Shown here piece after piece: positions 18,836-34,609 of a DNA stretch of 46,363 bases. The notes beneath the pieces are model-generated. The model was not told the DNA's origin. It made no database searches and worked only from the letters and a program-made list of their open reading frames with translations. The stretch lies in the NCBI RefSeq assembly GCF_016792905.1, contig NZ_JAEULP010000025.1, forward strand, positions 1 through 46,363, read 5' to 3'. A program made the position numbers and the translations under genes. This DNA comes from Tabrizicola sp. Lineage in GTDB: Bacteria > Pseudomonadota > Alphaproteobacteria > Rhodobacterales > Rhodobacteraceae. Each line of letters begins with the position of its first letter. Within the stretch, counting starts at the first letter, position 1.

Positions 18836-19651
18836 ATGAAAATCATCAGCCGTGCGCAGCTTCCGGGCCCCCTGTCCGGCCATGTCCACCTGATCGGTGC
18901 TGGCCCCGGCGATCCCGATCTTCTGACGCTGAAGGCGCTGCGGCTGATCCAGTCGGCGGATGTCGTGGTGCATGACCGGCTGGTCTCGCCCGAGATCATG
19001 GCGCTGGTGCCCGCGGGCGCGCGCCGGATCGACGTTGGCAAGCTGCCGAAATTCCACAAGGTTCCACAGGAAGCGATCAATGCCCTTCTGGTCGACCTCG
19101 CCCGCGAGGGGCTGGTGGTCGCCCGGCTGAAGGGCGGCGATCCGCTGATCTTCGGGCGCGGCTCGGAAGAGGCCGAGGCCTGCCGCGCCGCCGGTGTCGC
19201 CGTGAGCTACACCCCCGGCATCACCTCGGCGCAAGGGGCCGCCGCCTCGACCGGGGTGCCGCTGACCCACCGGGGCCTGGCGACCGGCGTGCGCTATGTG
19301 ACCGGCCACCGGGCGAAGGATGCCGTGCTGGACCTCGACTGGGCCTCGCTCGCGTCGGAGGACACGACGCTGGTCGTCTACATGGGCGCGGGCAACATCG
19401 CCGAGATCGCGCTGCAACTGATGCGGCACGGGCTGGCCCCTGCCCTGCCGGTGCTGGCCGTCAGCGCGGCGACGACCCCGCGCGAGACGCGGCTCCTGTC
19501 GACGCTGGGCCAGATCGGCACCGACGTGGCCAAGGCCCAGCCCGAGGCGCCGGTCCTGTTCGTGATCGGCCGCGTCGCCGGGATGTATCCCGAGATCGCC
19601 GAACTGGACGCGTCCCTCTGCGAGGGGGCCGGGATGGCGGCCTATGCGTGA
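18836..19651 (+). CDS. nirE: NirE, uroporphyrinogen-III C-methyltransferase for heme d1
   Basis: SAM-dependent enzyme making precorrin-2 from uroporphyrinogen III, the first committed step to heme d1. It has 271 residues. Motifs include VHLIGAGPGDPDLLTLKAL, the VVARLKGGDPLIFGRGSEE block and YTPGITSAQGAAASTGVPLTHR. The ATG at 18836 is chosen because an upstream in-frame start would lie in the terminator. It overlaps nirC by 8 bp (nirC ATG 19644). Confidence 0.94.
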   Translation: MKIISRAQLPGPLSGHVHLIGAGPGDPDLLTLKALRLIQSADVVVHDRLVSPEIMALVPAGARRIDVGKLPKFHKVPQEAINALLVDLAREGLVVARLKGGDPLIFGRGSEEAEACRAAGVAVSYTPGITSAQGAAASTGVPLTHRGLATGVRYVTGHRAKDAVLDLDWASLASEDTTLVVYMGAGNIAEIALQLMRHGLAPALPVLAVSAATTPRETRLLSTLGQIGTDVAKAQPEAPVLFVIGRVAGMYPEIAELDASLCEGAGMAAYA

Positions 19652-20111
19652 TCGTCTTCCAGCGATGTCAGCGCCCCCCACCCCCAGCCCCTCCCCACAA
19701 GGGGGAGGGGAGGCGCGGATCGCCGACCGCTCCGCCTGCTTCCCCATCAGTTTTTCGCACCGCCGGTTCCACAAGCGCCTCCCTCCCCCCGCGTGGGGGA
19801 GGGCCGGGGTGGGGGGGCTGGCCCTTGCCATCGGGCTTGCGCTCCCTGCCGCAGCCGACATCCCCCCGATCCGCGCGACGGAACTGGAGCACATGGTCCT
19901 GCAGGACTGCGGATCGTGCCACGGCCTCACCCGCAAGGGGGGCCTTGGCCGTCCCTTGACCACCGAGGCGCTGGCCCATGCCGACCGGGAGGGCCTTGCG
20001 CTCATCATCCTCGACGGTGTGCCCGGCACCGCCATGCCGCCCTGGCGCCCGCTTCTCACCGAAGCCGAGGCGCTGTGGATCGCCGATTACCTGAAAGGGG
20101 AAACCCCATGA
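19644..20111 (+). CDS. nirC: NirC, small periplasmic cytochrome c with repeat-derived N-terminal insertion
   Basis: Monoheme cytochrome c (heme site CGSCH) of the nir cluster, implicated in electron transfer during heme d1 formation or nitrite reduction. It has 155 residues, longer than the roughly 100-110 usual for the family. The excess is a 48-codon block encoded by a palindromic repeat (19674-19817) that splits the signal peptide. Residues before it (MRDRLPAMSA) and after it (LALAIGLALPAAA-D) would join into a normal signal peptide. A GTG at 19809 with GGAGGG five bases upstream, both inside the repeat, is an alternative start giving a leader without basic residues. The stop overlaps the nirF start (ATGA). 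Confidence 0.88.
   Translation: MRDRLPAMSAPPTPSPSPQGGGEARIADRSACFPISFSHRRFHKRLPPPAWGRAGVGGLALAIGLALPAAADIPPIRATELEHMVLQDCGSCHGLTRKGGLGRPLTTEALAHADREGLALIILDGVPGTAMPPWRPLLTEAEALWIADYLKGETP
19674..19817. repeat. 144-bp palindromic element inserted in frame in nirC
   Basis: The element starts with a C-rich end (CCCCCCACCCCC) and ends with the complementary G-rich end (GGGGTGGGGGGG). Inside are two hairpins: CCCCTCCCC / GGGGGAGGGG (19688-19710) and CTCCCTCCCCCC / GTGGGGGAGGG (about 19779-19803). Its last 45 bp (19773-19817) match 33056-33100 at about 39 of 45 positions. The length is 48 codons, so the reading frame is kept. Confidence 0.8.
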
Positions 20112-23211: not shown

Positions 23212-24419
23212 TGTTCCGCCTGACGCAATACATGCGCGAACTCGTGCATCCGACGCCAGTCCGCCGCCGGTCGGGTCCGGTCAAGCCGGTGGTGATCTGG
23301 AACCTGACCCGCACCTGCAACCTGCGCTGTCGGCACTGCTACACCACCAGCGCCGACGTGCCGTTTCCGGGTGAGCTGAGCCATGAGCAGGCGATGGGGG
23401 TGCTGGACGACCTTGCGGGCTTCGGCATCCCGGCGCTGATCCTGTCGGGGGGCGAGCCGCTGTCGCGGTTCGACTTCTTCCCCCTTGCCGAGCGGGCGCG
23501 GGAGTTGGGGTTCCGGCATCTGTCGCTGTCGACGAACGGCACCAGGGTGGCCGAGCACATCGACCGGCTGGTCGAGCTGGACTTCGACTATGTCGGCATC
23601 TCGCTGGACGGGATCGGCCAGATGAACGACTGGTTCCGGGGCGTCGACGGGGCCTATGATGCGGCGCTGGCAGGGGTGCGCGCCTGCAAGGCCAGGGGGG
23701 TCAAGGTGGGCCTGCGCTTCACCATCACCGAGGACAACGCCGACATGCTGCCCGCGATGATCGACCTCTGCGATGCGGAAGGGGTGGACAAGTTCTACCT
23801 GTCGCACCTCGTCTACGCCGGCCGCGGGAACAAGAACCGGGGCGAGGATACCGCGCGCGCGCGGACGCGGAAGGCGATGGACCAGCTGATCGACCGCGCC
23901 TGGGTCGCCGTGGCCGAGGATCAGCCCTTGGAAATCGTGACCGGCAACAACGACGCCGATGCGGTCTGGTTCCTGCGCTGGGTCGAACGCAACTTCCCCT
24001 CGCAGCGCGCCGCCCATGTGGCGCAGCACCTCGAGGCCTGGGGCGGCAATTCCAGCGGTCTGGGCGTGGCCAACATCGACCCGCAGGGCAAGGTCCACCC
24101 GGATACCTACTGGTCCGACTACACGGTCGGCAGCGTCAAGGACACGCCGTTCAGCACGCTCTGGACCGGGGCCGACCCGATGCTCGCCACCCTGCGCCAG
24201 CGCCCCCGCCCGCTGAAAGGCCGCTGCGGCGCCTGCGCCTTCAAGGACATCTGCGGCGGCAACACCCGCATCCGCGCCCTGCAAGTCACGGGCGACCCCT
24301 GGGCGGAAGACCCCGCCTGCTACCTGACCAACGCCGAGATCGGGGTGGACGAGGCCGACCGCATCGCAGTCAGCCCCTTCCGGGGAAAGAGCCATGATCC
24401 CGAACATCGTTTCCTTTAG
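23211..24419 (+). CDS. nirJ: NirJ, radical SAM heme d1 synthase component
   Basis: 402 residues. The radical SAM cluster motif CNLRCRHC (C36, C40, C43) is near the N-terminus, followed by the [10 protein letters not shown] and STNGTRV motifs. A C-terminal SPASM-like region has [13 protein letters not shown] and a further cysteine in EDPACYL, for an additional Fe-S cluster. It replaces two propionates of didecarboxysiroheme by oxo groups. It overlaps nirN by 26 bp. Confidence 0.96.
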
Positions 24420-25944
24420 GCTGCTGGCGCTTCTCACCACCCCCGCCCTCGCCCAACCCGACGGCGCGACGATCTATGCCGACCTCTGCTCCTCCTGCCA
24501 CGCGGAGACGCGGCTTGGTGGCAAGGGCCCGGCGCTGATCCCGGAAAGCCTGGGGCGGCTCAAGGGCGAGAAGCTCGCCGCCACCATCGCCGAGGGCCGG
24601 GCGATGACGCAGATGCCCGCCTTCAAGGACACGCTGAAACCGGAGGAAATCACCGCTGTCGCCGATTTCATCAGCCAGCCGCTGGTGGCCCCGGTCTGGG
24701 GCGAGGCCGAGATCGCCGCCTCGCGCTCGTTGCGCGACGACTACACCCCCGCCGCCGCCCCGGTCTTCAAAGCCGACCCGATGAACATCACCCTCGTGGT
24801 CGAAACCGGCGACAGCCACATCTCCGTCCTCGACGGCGATACGTTCGACGTGCTCGACCGCTTCGAGACCCCCTTCGCCGTGCACGGCGGGCCGAAGTTT
24901 TCCTCCGACGGGCGCTTCGTCTTCGTCATGTCGCGCGATGGCTGGGTGCAGAAGTATGACATCTGGTCGCTGCACGAAGTGGGCCGGGTCCGCGCGGGCC
25001 TCAACAGCCGCAACATCGCGATGAGTTCCGACGGGAAATACCTGGCGGTGGCCAACTACCTGCCGAACACCCTGACCATCCTGAACGCCACCGACCTGAC
25101 CGTCGCCAAGGTCTTCGACGTCAAGGGCCGCAACGGCGAGGCCTCGCGCGTCTCCGCCGTCTACCAGGCGCCGGAACGCGGCACCTTCGTCCTGGCGCTG
25201 AAGGATGTGGCCGAGATCTGGGAGGTCGCCTTCACCGAAGACGGCGGGCCCTATACCGAAGGCTTCGTCCACAACAACGAAAACGGCATGGAAGAGGTGA
25301 TGGGGGCCGAGAAGGGTCTGTTCGCCCGCCGCCGGATCGAAATCTCGTCCCCGCTCGACGATTTCTTCTTCTCCCCCGACTACCGCGAGCTGATCGGCGC
25401 CAACCGCGAGGGCGAGACCGGCGTCGTCGTCAACCTCGACGTCGGGCGCGAAATCGCCAGCCTGCCCCTGCCCGGCATGCCGCACCTGGGGTCGGGAATC
25501 AGCTGGGAAAGGAACGGCCACCGCGTCGTCGCCATCCCGCACCTGAACGAGGGCAGAATCAGCGTGATCGACATGGAGGACTGGAGCCTTATAAAGACCA
25601 TCGAGACCTCCGGCCCCGGCTTCTTCCTGCGCAGCCATGACGGCACGCCCTATCTCTGGGCCGATGTCTTCACCGGAGAGCACAAGGGCGAGATGCACAT
25701 CATCGACAAGCAGTCGCTGGAGGTGGTCAAGGTGCTGAAGCCGGAACCGGGCAAGACCGTCGCCCATACAGAGTTCACCAAGGACGGCAAGTATGCCCTC
25801 GTGTCGATCTGGGAAATGGATGGGGCGGTCATCGTCTACGACGCCGCAACTTTCGTGGAACTGAAGCGCCTGCCGATGGTTAAGCCGTCAGGGAAATACA
25901 ATGTCTGGAACAAGATCACCTTCGAAGACGGCACCAGCCACTAG
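24394..25944 (+). CDS. nirN: NirN, dihydro-heme d1 dehydrogenase
   Basis: Paralogue of NirS that introduces the last acrylate double bond of heme d1 in the periplasm. It has 516 residues: signal peptide ([20 protein letters not shown]), CSSCH heme c site (C32, C35, H36) and a d1-type propeller. [17 protein letters not shown] and [19 protein letters not shown] match conserved blocks of the family. The 26-bp overlap with nirJ is a genuine coupling, since both termini are intact. Confidence 0.94.
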
Positions 25945-32014: not shown

Positions 32015-32970
32015 GTGCGTCTTCCCCGGGTGGCGAGAACCGCGCCGAACATCACCACGGCGACCATGATCGACCCCTCGATGATCGCGGCGACGTTGGG
32101 GTCGACGGAAAGGAGGGTCAGGTCCATCCGCACGGTGCGCAGGATCAGGACGGCGAGGATCGGGCCAAGAAGGCCACCCCTGCCGCCGCCCAGCACGACG
32201 CCGCCCAGCACCACGGCGGCGACCGAGGCGAGGAGGTAGGGGCCGGGAATAGGCTCGCCGATGCCGGTGCCCATGGTGACGCTCAGGCCCCCGAGCGCGG
32301 CGAAAAGGCCGCAGAGCGCGTAGGCGGCGATCCGGGTCTGGCCGACGGGAACACCGGACCGGAAGGCGGCAAGGGCGTCGGAGCCGATGGCGTAGAGGCG
32401 CAGGCCGAGTTTGGAGCGGCGGATCGGCAGCCAGATCGCGGCGGTGACCACCGCAAGGAAGACGATCCCGCGCGGCAGCCAGTCAAGGCCCGGCAAGGGC
32501 AGGCCGCCCGCCGCGATGCTGCGGAGCCAGGGCGCGGCGCCGCCTCCCGGCGCGTTCAGGATCAGAAGGGCGACACCCTGCCAGACGAAGAGCATGGCAA
32601 GCGTGACGACGATGTCCGGCACCTTGGAAACCACGATCAGCAAGCCGTTGATCGCCCCCATCGCAAGTCCGAGGAGGAGGACACACAGAACGATAACCAC
32701 GGATTGCAAATCCGTGGCGCCCTGCATCAGGACCGCCCCGGTCACGCTCGCCACCGCCATCATCGCGGCGATGGAAAGGTCGATGCCCCCGGCAATGACG
32801 ACGATGGCCATGCCGACGGTCGCAAGCGCAAAGGGCAGCGCGGCGCGGGCGAGGCTGTCGAGGCCCGAGGCGCCGAAGCCGGGCTGGATCAGCTTGGTGG
32901 CAAGGAGGAGGAGGGCCAGTAGGACGGCAAGGCCCAGTGTCCAGCTGTTCGCTTCGATCCAGCGCTTCAT
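32011..32970 (-). CDS. Sugar ABC transporter permease 1 (RbsC family)
   Basis: 319 residues, about ten membrane helices, with GGIDLSIAAMMAVASVTGA and LGGVVLGGGRGGLLGP motifs of CUT2 permeases. I use the ATG at 32970 because GGGAG is 7 bp upstream; the longer frame runs into the palindromic repeat. It is separated from the ATPase gene by about 150 bp that contain this repeat. Confidence 0.93.
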   Translation of the reverse strand: MKRWIEANSWTLGLAVLLALLLLATKLIQPGFGASGLDSLARAALPFALATVGMAIVVIAGGIDLSIAAMMAVASVTGAVLMQGATDLQSVVIVLCVLLLGLAMGAINGLLIVVSKVPDIVVTLAMLFVWQGVALLILNAPGGGAAPWLRSIAAGGLPLPGLDWLPRGIVFLAVVTAAIWLPIRRSKLGLRLYAIGSDALAAFRSGVPVGQTRIAAYALCGLFAALGGLSVTMGTGIGEPIPGPYLLASVAAVVLGGVVLGGGRGGLLGPILAVLILRTVRMDLTLLSVDPNVAAIIEGSIMVAVVMFGAVLATRGRRT

Positions 32971-32989
32971 GGGTGGACTCCCGGCAGGC

Positions 32990-33100
32990 TGCCCCTCTCT
33001 CCACGAGGAGGAGAGGGGGCTTCTTGCCCAGTCCGGGCGCCAACCCATGATCCCGAAGCGCTTCCCTCCCCCCCTGTGGGGGAGGGAGAGGGTGGGGGGG
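32990..33100. repeat. Second copy of the palindromic element, intergenic
   Basis: A left hairpin (CCCCTCTCTCC / GGAGGAGAGGGG, about 32993-33019) and a right hairpin (CTTCCCTCCCCC / GGGGGAGGGAG region) ending in GGGTGGGGGGG. Positions 33056-33100 align with 19773-19817 in nirC with six mismatches in 45. The left half is less similar. It separates the ATPase from the permease genes within the operon. Confidence 0.75.
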
Positions 33101-33124
33101 CGATGGACGGGAAGACAGGACGCG

Positions 33125-34609
33125 TCATGCCGGGGCCTTTTCGGTCAGGCCATAGGCCGCCCGCATCAGGGTCTGCTCATCGGCATCCTTCGCGTCGATC
33201 ACATCCACCACGCGACCGTTGAAGATGACCACGGCCCGGTCGCAGGCGAGGCGAATCTCCGCGAGTTCAGACGTATAGTAAAGGATCGCCGCGCCCTGAT
33301 CGGCCAGATCCCGGACAAGGGCATAGATCTGCCGCTTGGTGCGGATGTCGATGCCGCGCGTCGGATCGAAGAGGAGGAGCGTCTGCACCCCCTTGGCGAT
33401 CCAGCGGGCAATGGTGACTTTCTGCTGGTTGCCGCCGGAGAGCCTGCGCACCTCCCCCTGGGCGCGGGTGTCGATCTGGAGGGTCTCGATGGCCGACGTC
33501 ACTTTCGCCGCCTCGTCAGCCATGCGGATCGCGCCCCAGTTGCGAAAGCGGGCGAGCAGCGGCACGGCGATGTTTTCCCTGACCGAGCGGGACATGAACA
33601 GCGCGTGGGCGCGGTCGCCCGGCACCAGGGTCAGCCCGGCGGCGATGGCGTCGGCCGGGTGGGTGAAGGTCTGCGCGGCTCCGTCCACCTCGACCGTCCC
33701 GGCGCTCGCCTTGCGCTGTCCGGCGAGGGTGTCGAACAGCTCGTCCTGTCCCTGGCCCTCAAGGGCGACGACGCCCAGAACCTCGCCCTTGTGCAGATCG
33801 AAGGACACATCGGTCAGCCTTGTGCCGGTCTTCAGGTTGCGGACGCTTAGGCGTGGCGTTTCCGTCGAAGCCGCGCCAGCAGGCCGCGTTTCGGTCATCG
33901 CCGCGGCGACGGCGCCGCCGAGCATCATTTCGACGATGCGCTCCTCGATCCCCGGTTCGATGGCGACATCGCCCACCGTCAACCCGTCACGCAGGACAGT
34001 CGCCCGATCGCAGATCGCGGCGATTTCGGTGAAGCGGTGGGAGATATAGATGACCGACCGCCCGGCATCGGCCTGCGCGCGGACGGTCCTCAGCACGCGC
34101 TCGACAAGGTCGGTCGGCAGGGCGGCGGTCAGTTCGTCCAGCAGCAGGACATCGGGCTCGATGGCCAGCGCGCGGGCAAGGTCAACGATGCGCAGCGACG
34201 CCAGCGGCAGCGACCGGATCATCGCCTCTGGGTCAAGGTCGGGCAGCCCCAGCTCGGCCACCCAATGCCGGAACGGCTCCAGCGCCGTGTCGCCAAGCCG
34301 CAGGTTGTCGGCGACGGACAGGTCGGGGATCAGCGAGGGTTCCTGGTAGACCGGCACCAGCCCCCATTTCCGCGCCCCCGCCGGGTTGGTGACAGTGCTT
34401 TCCCGGCCCCTGATCCTGACATGGCCGGAATCGGGTTTCAGGACGCCGGTCAGGATCTTGACGAAGGTGGATTTCCCGGCGCCGTTCGCGCCCATCAGCG
34501 CCACGACCTGCCCCGGCCCCACCTGAAGCGAGGCGTTCTTCAACGCCTGGACCGCGCCGAAGCGCTTGGCGACACCCGTGGCGTCAAGAACGGCGGCAGT
34601 CTCCGGCAT
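33125..34609 (-). CDS. Sugar ABC transporter ATP-binding protein, two cassettes (RbsA/MglA type)
   Basis: 494 residues, tandem ABC domains. The first has Walker A GANGAGKST and Walker B LLLDELTAAL, where the usual DEPTAAL proline is leucine. The second has a degenerate Walker A (LEGQGQDEL) as in RbsA, signature LSGGNQQKV and LLFDPTRGID. The second site is probably not hydrolytic. It follows the binding protein across a strong hairpin. Confidence 0.94.
   Translation of the reverse strand: MPETAAVLDATGVAKRFGAVQALKNASLQVGPGQVVALMGANGAGKSTFVKILTGVLKPDSGHVRIRGRESTVTNPAGARKWGLVPVYQEPSLIPDLSVADNLRLGDTALEPFRHWVAELGLPDLDPEAMIRSLPLASLRIVDLARALAIEPDVLLLDELTAALPTDLVERVLRTVRAQADAGRSVIYISHRFTEIAAICDRATVLRDGLTVGDVAIEPGIEERIVEMMLGGAVAAAMTETRPAGAASTETPRLSVRNLKTGTRLTDVSFDLHKGEVLGVVALEGQGQDELFDTLAGQRKASAGTVEVDGAAQTFTHPADAIAAGLTLVPGDRAHALFMSRSVRENIAVPLLARFRNWGAIRMADEAAKVTSAIETLQIDTRAQGEVRRLSGGNQQKVTIARWIAKGVQTLLLFDPTRGIDIRTKRQIYALVRDLADQGAAILYYTSELAEIRLACDRAVVIFNGRVVDVIDAKDADEQTLMRAAYGLTEKAPA

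Follow-up and report, generated by a model that had tools for sequence, protein, structure and literature searches.

A palindromic repeat pair lies in frame within the nirC leader of a Tabrizicola genome, at a gene junction where unlike repeats recur in relatives

The nirC gene of Tabrizicola sp., which encodes a small c-type cytochrome, carries a palindromic repeat in frame within its leader; comparison with relatives confirms this element and corrects its edges. Going by the conservation of the reading frame across lineages, the element is probably translated as a long n-region of the NirC signal peptide and removed by cleavage. We analysed a stretch of 46,363 nucleotides of contig NZ_JAEULP010000025.1 (the window), in which nirE and nirC overlap by eight bases with the letters ATGCGTGA. 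The name nirC was assigned from the position after nirE and from similarity to the same gene in relatives, and a strong nirC match was found in 10 of the 32 genus genomes, including that of the window (G000; other G numbers are the genomes compared and L numbers are loci). NirC has been reported to make, with NirF, the keto groups of haem d1 (PMC13168839). The features discussed below are as follows.

18839..19651, + strand: nirE (uroporphyrinogen-III C-methyltransferase), the upstream gene (TIGR01469, E 3.2e-89; PF00590, E 2.5e-51)
19649-19651, + strand: nirE stop codon
19644..20111, + strand: nirC, small c-type cytochrome, 155 aa with the insert (ORF; PF13442, E 2.6e-11)
19644..19646, + strand: nirC start codon in an ATGNNTRA overlap with the nirE stop, conserved as a start across junctions and unpaired in the predicted fold
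19653..19817, + strand: 165-nt (55-codon) insert relative to empty relatives, from comparison with nine other congeners; translation RLPAMSAPPTPSPSPQGGGEARIADRSACFPISFSHRRFHKRLPPPAWGRAGVGG
19653..19672, + strand: 20 nt of the insert outside the palindrome, with no counterpart in the empty relatives (congener comparison)
19673..19716, + strand: REP-like unit 1, 44 nt (inverted repeat; nhmmer match 19675-19715, +)
19717..19774, no strand: 58-nt spacer separating the two REP-like units (inverted-repeat search)
19775..19818, - strand: REP-like unit 2, inverted, 44 nt (inverted repeat; nhmmer match 19776-19816, -)
19798..19811, + strand: candidate alternative start, GGAGGG at 19798-19803 and in-frame GTG at 19809-19811 (sequence reading)
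19818..19859, + strand: native h-region and likely cleavage site, LALAIGLALPAAA followed by D (alignment with congener signal peptides)
19908..19922, + strand: haem-binding motif CGSCH (read from the sequence)
24394..25944, + strand: nirN, with an empty site in the window and REP inserts at the like junction in G016, G017 and G007

An earlier note on this DNA had placed a palindromic repeat in the start of nirC, and the repeat is indeed there, with two 44-nt arms (19673-19716 and 19775-19818) that are 80% complementary and lie 58 nt apart, the first containing a perfect 9-bp hairpin (19688-19696/19702-19710). The single strand from 19630 to 19830 has a predicted folding energy of -117.7 kcal/mol, below that of each of 200 dinucleotide shuffles (z -3.75), and an Rfam search of the element gave one match, to a microRNA family and far under the cut-off. 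As the note had read it, the frame is kept and the element brings in no stop, the nirC ORF being open across the whole palindrome. Its size of 144 bp fits the palindrome (about 146 bp) but not the insert, which at 165 nt is longer because the 20 nt to the left of the repeat are also extra. For the same reason MRDRLPAMSA, which the note had joined to the rest of the signal peptide, is not a native n-region. Excising 144 bp on paper, said to restore a normal signal peptide and the usual length, is inexact, leaving 107 aa against about 100 in the empty-site relatives. The placement within nirC is true but incomplete, since the element also lies directly after the nirE stop. Taken as a whole, the note's reading of the element is partly supported.

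Copies of the repeat are scattered over the window's own genome, where at least 64 matching BLAST pieces of the region were found in the best 40 of 121 candidates. A profile search of 31 stretches (139 kb around the matches, window included) located 48 units at 37 places, and the family was matched at E 1e-6 in 31 of the 32 Tabrizicola genomes, the window's own included and G030 being the one miss. The unit is thus a short hairpin in many dispersed copies, as in REPs. The GTAG and CGTC super-families of REPs have been described as short hairpin units, often in inverted pairs and mostly intergenic, frequently near the 3' end of the upstream ORF and sometimes inside ORFs; in two Xanthomonas recB genes they occupy about the same site (PMC3733652). 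Our elements resemble these in their short hairpin units, their inverted pairing and their occurrence in some ORFs. They differ in that the unit consensus CCCCCACCCCCATCCCCTCCCCACGAGGGGGAGGGGAGGCG, judged by eye, has neither a terminal GTAG nor a terminal CGTC tag, and we call them REP-like because of it. A search of the window's own genome (92.88% complete) gave no match to the RAYT/Y1-type transposase family PF01797; CGTC REPs have been reported without an associated transposase. A further single REP-like unit occurs in the window at 33059-33099 on the - strand, and the ORF across it (32396-33847, +) has no Pfam match.

We then compared the nirE–nirC junction across relatives. From the overlapping ATG to the CxxCH motif the distance is 264 nt in G000, whereas it is 99 nt in five and 105 nt in one of the other nine congeners, and the nearest nirC relative of the window has an empty site. 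The remaining three congeners have distances of 174 nt (G017), 171 nt (G030) and 168 nt (G007). The earlier note had held that the reading would fall if all relatives shared the long N-terminus with unrelated DNA; long N-termini with unlike DNA do occur, in three of the nine rather than in all, and they strengthen the case, as the inserts look separate and are all in frame. At a larger scale, 145 nirC loci yielded 124 unique junctions after removal of 4 without an upstream nirE, 2 with a misplaced nirE and 15 identical copies. One frame relation holds at 120 of the 124, and at 22 of the 24 that are at least 130 nt long; of the 120 in-frame junctions, 109 have ATG, GTG or TTG as the overlapping start. 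The two long junctions out of frame, L137 (uncultured Paracoccus) and L179 (a Phaeospirillum MAG), have no start overlapping the nirE stop.

Seven insert carriers were picked by junction length together with repeat dispersal (dispersal for six of them), because folding alone fails to single out all carriers. Relative to the empty distance of 94 nt, their inserts add 165 nt (G000), 156 nt (G376), 90 nt (G234), 75 nt (G017 and G209), 72 nt (G030) and 69 nt (G007). Each of the seven keeps the frame and stays free of stop codons from the ATG that overlaps the nirE stop. The chance of this is (1/3)^7 = 4.6e-4 for frame and 3.7e-5 with openness estimated from shuffles, figures to be read with the choice of carriers after inspection and with three of them sharing one repeat family, so that counting five events gives (1/3)^5 = 0.004. 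In-frame junctions of at least 150 nt number 13, and dispersal was looked at in seven, the other six being L108, L109, L146, L148, L183 and L189.

Among the seven inserts, mutual matches occur only between G017, G007 and G209; the repeat family that these share gave 15, 24 and 10 matching pieces in their respective genomes and none in G000. The G376 insert has at least 28 matches in its own genome (in the best 40 of 160 candidates) and the G234 insert has 15, while a search of its own genome showed the G030 insert not to be a dispersed repeat. Three dispersed repeat families besides that of the window supply inserts at this junction in other genomes of the family. For rough comparison, 20 copies of the G017/G007/G209 family at other places were sorted by alignment length modulo three: the remainder was 0 in 9, 1 in 2 and 2 in 9, so that multiples of three make up more than a third but by no means all. 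In a tree of 48 nirE+nirC sequences, which includes five of the seven carriers, G000 groups with G016 (0.77), G030 with G026 (0.95) and G209 with the nearly empty G006 (1.00), each carrier standing beside an empty or nearly empty relative, while G017 and G007 are only weakly placed. This alternation of carriers with empty relatives points to separate insertion events.

These comparisons also bear on whether the insert is an assembly artefact. The window's genome is a 91-contig draft with a completeness of 92.88, but the insert sits away from the contig ends and its frame is open, and comparable in-frame inserts are present in Tabrizicola soli CCTCC AB 2017177 and T. oligotrophica KMS-5, whose records are not labelled as metagenome assemblies (they correspond to G007 and G209, with identity over the 250 nt compared). 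Since G007 is also filled at the CobG and XdhC REP sites described below, we regard an artefact as scarcely credible.

A second junction in the nir cluster shows a similar pattern. In the window, nirN, which encodes another haem protein of the cluster, starts 23 nt before the nirJ stop (start region 24394-24419). In G016 and G017, a REP pair (+159) lies directly after the nirJ stop and within the nirN signal peptide, and in G007 (T. soli) a shorter insert (+114) that ends in a REP unit occupies the same position (L260, L051 and L261 for G016, G017 and G007, respectively). All three inserts are open and in frame. Both genes were found in 47 of 49 regions, and one frame holds at all 47 nirJ/nirN junctions; 16 of these are at least 100 nt long, with REP inserts recognised in the three genomes named. 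A start codon is missing at the usual nirN place in two genomes (G118 and G234).

For nirC, we propose that a REP-like repeat pair was inserted directly 3' of the nirE stop and, as the start of nirC overlaps the end of nirE, thereby landed within the first nirC codons. With the frame kept and no stop brought in, ribosomes starting at the overlapping ATG would read through the element, and the NirC signal peptide would gain an n-region 55 residues longer than in relatives. Export would still work with the long n-region, and signal peptidase would cut off the extension, likely at the position given by the A-x-A pattern, to leave the mature cytochrome unchanged. Such removal would explain why inserts are tolerated here. 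Nothing suggests any function for the extra peptide. The predicted mRNA fold is consistent with this start, the overlapping ATG having a probability of 0.98 of being unpaired.

The strongest competing reading is that the element is not translated as part of NirC but supplies its own ribosome-binding site and the GTG at 19809-19811, giving an ancestral-length precursor that begins MGGLALAIGLALPAAA, with the open frame being accidental. As the earlier note had observed, the element does carry GGAGGG 5 nt upstream of the in-frame GTG, a good ribosome-binding site in G000, and the GTG stands at -33 from CxxCH, the ancestral start position. We treat it as a real rival in G000 because it restores exactly the ancestral length. 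ATG or GTG codons at -33/-34 from CxxCH are likewise found in the five carriers closest to the window (the four of the genus plus G209), the three nirN carriers have an in-frame GTG at -40, and the REP survey regards most N-terminal REPs as probably untranslated (PMC3733652). However, an internal start predicts no conservation of frame, and the seven picked nirC carriers and the three nirN carriers are all in frame and open. The GTG and GGAGGG are also mostly paired in the predicted fold (mean probability unpaired 0.00 and 0.17), as opposed to the free overlapping ATG, and REP units inside CobG and XdhC find no account in such a start.

The charge of the n-region gives a further, partial argument. 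The extended n-regions of all seven nirC carriers have a net charge of +1 to +13, whereas the short forms range from 0 to -2 and thus lack the positive n-region charge, with negative values in G017 and G209; these short forms use one hand-chosen internal start per carrier, and two of the seven have no n-region by the measure used. Natural NirC starts have a net positive n-region in 74 of 102 cases and lack one in 28. The argument fails at nirN, because the GTG at -40 yields a short form with a positively charged n-region. Weighing both sides, we consider initiation at the internal GTG unlikely, and the conservation of frame across lineages argues for translation of N-terminal repeats, in contrast to the view expressed for them in the text of PMC3733652.

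A third possibility is that the insertion impairs nirC and that the gene is heading for loss. A 55-codon insert in a signal peptide could lower export, and a very stable hairpin lies within the coding region; against this, CGSCH is kept and the mature part of NirC has a dN/dS of 0.10 to 0.14 against five congeners (0.10 against both G016 and G018), which shows that the gene has been under purifying selection, although as a whole-branch value it would allow for a very recent loss. With the nirC and nirN frames of other carriers also open, an impaired gene is very unlikely. Among the three outcomes that the earlier note had listed, the translated extension therefore has the strongest support, a new GTG start comes second as a less likely possibility, and an impaired nirC finds no support, given a dN/dS of about 0.1.

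The hairpin may instead be kept for regulation, for instance to reduce the ratio of NirC to NirE or to shield the mRNA upstream, with the frame being merely a requirement. REPs are often transcribed at gene 3' ends and have been proposed as post-transcriptional elements (PMC3733652), and unlike palindromes recur at the nirE–nirC site. Most junctions, however, are without any such insert, and three inserts that still keep the frame (G007, G030 and G376) have folds no more stable than those of shuffles (z -0.54, -0.09 and -0.92). We judge selection for the hairpin to be quite improbable as the explanation, and it is compatible with a translated n-region rather than exclusive of it.

REPs have been reported to settle near the 3' ends of upstream genes (PMC3733652), which at overlapping pairs coincide with the first codons of the next gene; where that gene starts with a signal peptide, an in-frame insert would add only to the n-region. 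The nirC and nirN cases fit this proposed account. We tentatively suggest, at somewhat less than even confidence, that in this family of bacteria overlapping junctions before genes for exported proteins are recurrent landing sites at which unrelated palindromic repeats become translated, cut-off n-regions, making the signal peptide a safe harbour for selfish DNA. If this is true, a cleavable signal peptide lets selfish DNA be translated at little cost, and the annotated starts of other exported proteins would be worth re-examining. Whether most N-terminal repeats are translated was left open by the REP survey, and the nirC locus offers a natural test: some close relatives have the insert and others lack it, several repeats of unlike sequence share one site, named strains are among the carriers, and export of the cytochrome is open to assay.

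Autotransporters with extended signal peptides also have a long n-region ahead of an ordinary h-region. Their extension is conserved, while the extension described here is repeat DNA that varies by lineage. Intragenic ERIC/RU elements of enterobacteria include a signal-peptide case, a putative exported protein in the account of PMC2759123, whereas the present case concerns a conserved cytochrome of assigned function, for which close relatives include both empty and filled sites. Rickettsia palindromic elements are about 150 bp long, palindromic and dispersed, and many lie in frame in unrelated genes (PMC10969869); N-terminal RPE-1 elements have been reported to be expressed in R. conorii (PMC3733652). 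The earlier note had drawn the comparison with Rickettsia, which holds as an analogy and now takes in several repeat families, two nir junctions and copies in CobG, XdhC and CobN. Our elements are likewise palindromic, dispersed and inserted in frame; they occur in another order of Alphaproteobacteria, one junction is hit repeatedly and within signal peptides, and the likeness drawn here is one of description. Intragenic REPs and Rickettsia palindromic elements are thus already known, and what is new is that such insertion recurs, in frame, where genes for exported cytochromes overlap the gene before, with several unlike families at one such junction. Among the matches listed in our search, no report on repeats in nirC or in Tabrizicola was found, which leaves their absence from the literature unproven.

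Finally, the search of the genome for copies inside genes that the earlier note had proposed found the element dispersed, with at least 4 of the 37 places inside genes and in frame: nirC, cobG and xdhC by alignment and cobN by a spanning Pfam match, with ampD a probable addition. As with the Rickettsia elements, in-frame insertion thus affects unrelated conserved genes, CobG and XdhC being aligned with and without the insert and CobN resting on its profile match. ORFs across REP places were judged by Pfam and NCBIfam matches (30 of 72 ORFs scanned); codon-usage scoring of these places did not tell the coding strand apart from its shadow. The G000 copies of cobG (L005) and xdhC (L013) each hold an in-frame REP pair, of about 39 aa and 40 aa, respectively. 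By alignment, G007 (T. soli) is filled at both sites and G026 has a single unit in xdhC; the cobG site is empty in G026 and G030, with a shorter unlike stretch in G016, and the xdhC site is empty in G016, G017, G018 and G030. In cobN (L237), a single in-frame unit occupies residues 239-252 of the scanned fragment and is spanned by a Pfam match (173-550), while the NCBIfam match is in two parts and better from 257. The ampD place (L011) was left uncounted, being a single ORF with the unit after the amidase domain. Because no later start could avoid the REP units in cobG, xdhC or cobN, the elements in cobG and xdhC would have to be translated if those genes work. The CobG insert has a dN/dS of 0.81 against 0.22 for the rest of the protein (G000 versus G007), as would be expected for tolerated filler, and these two genes show that inserts within proteins can also be kept. 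Beside the REP pair in xdhC of T. soli (L255) there are about 22 more inserted residues.
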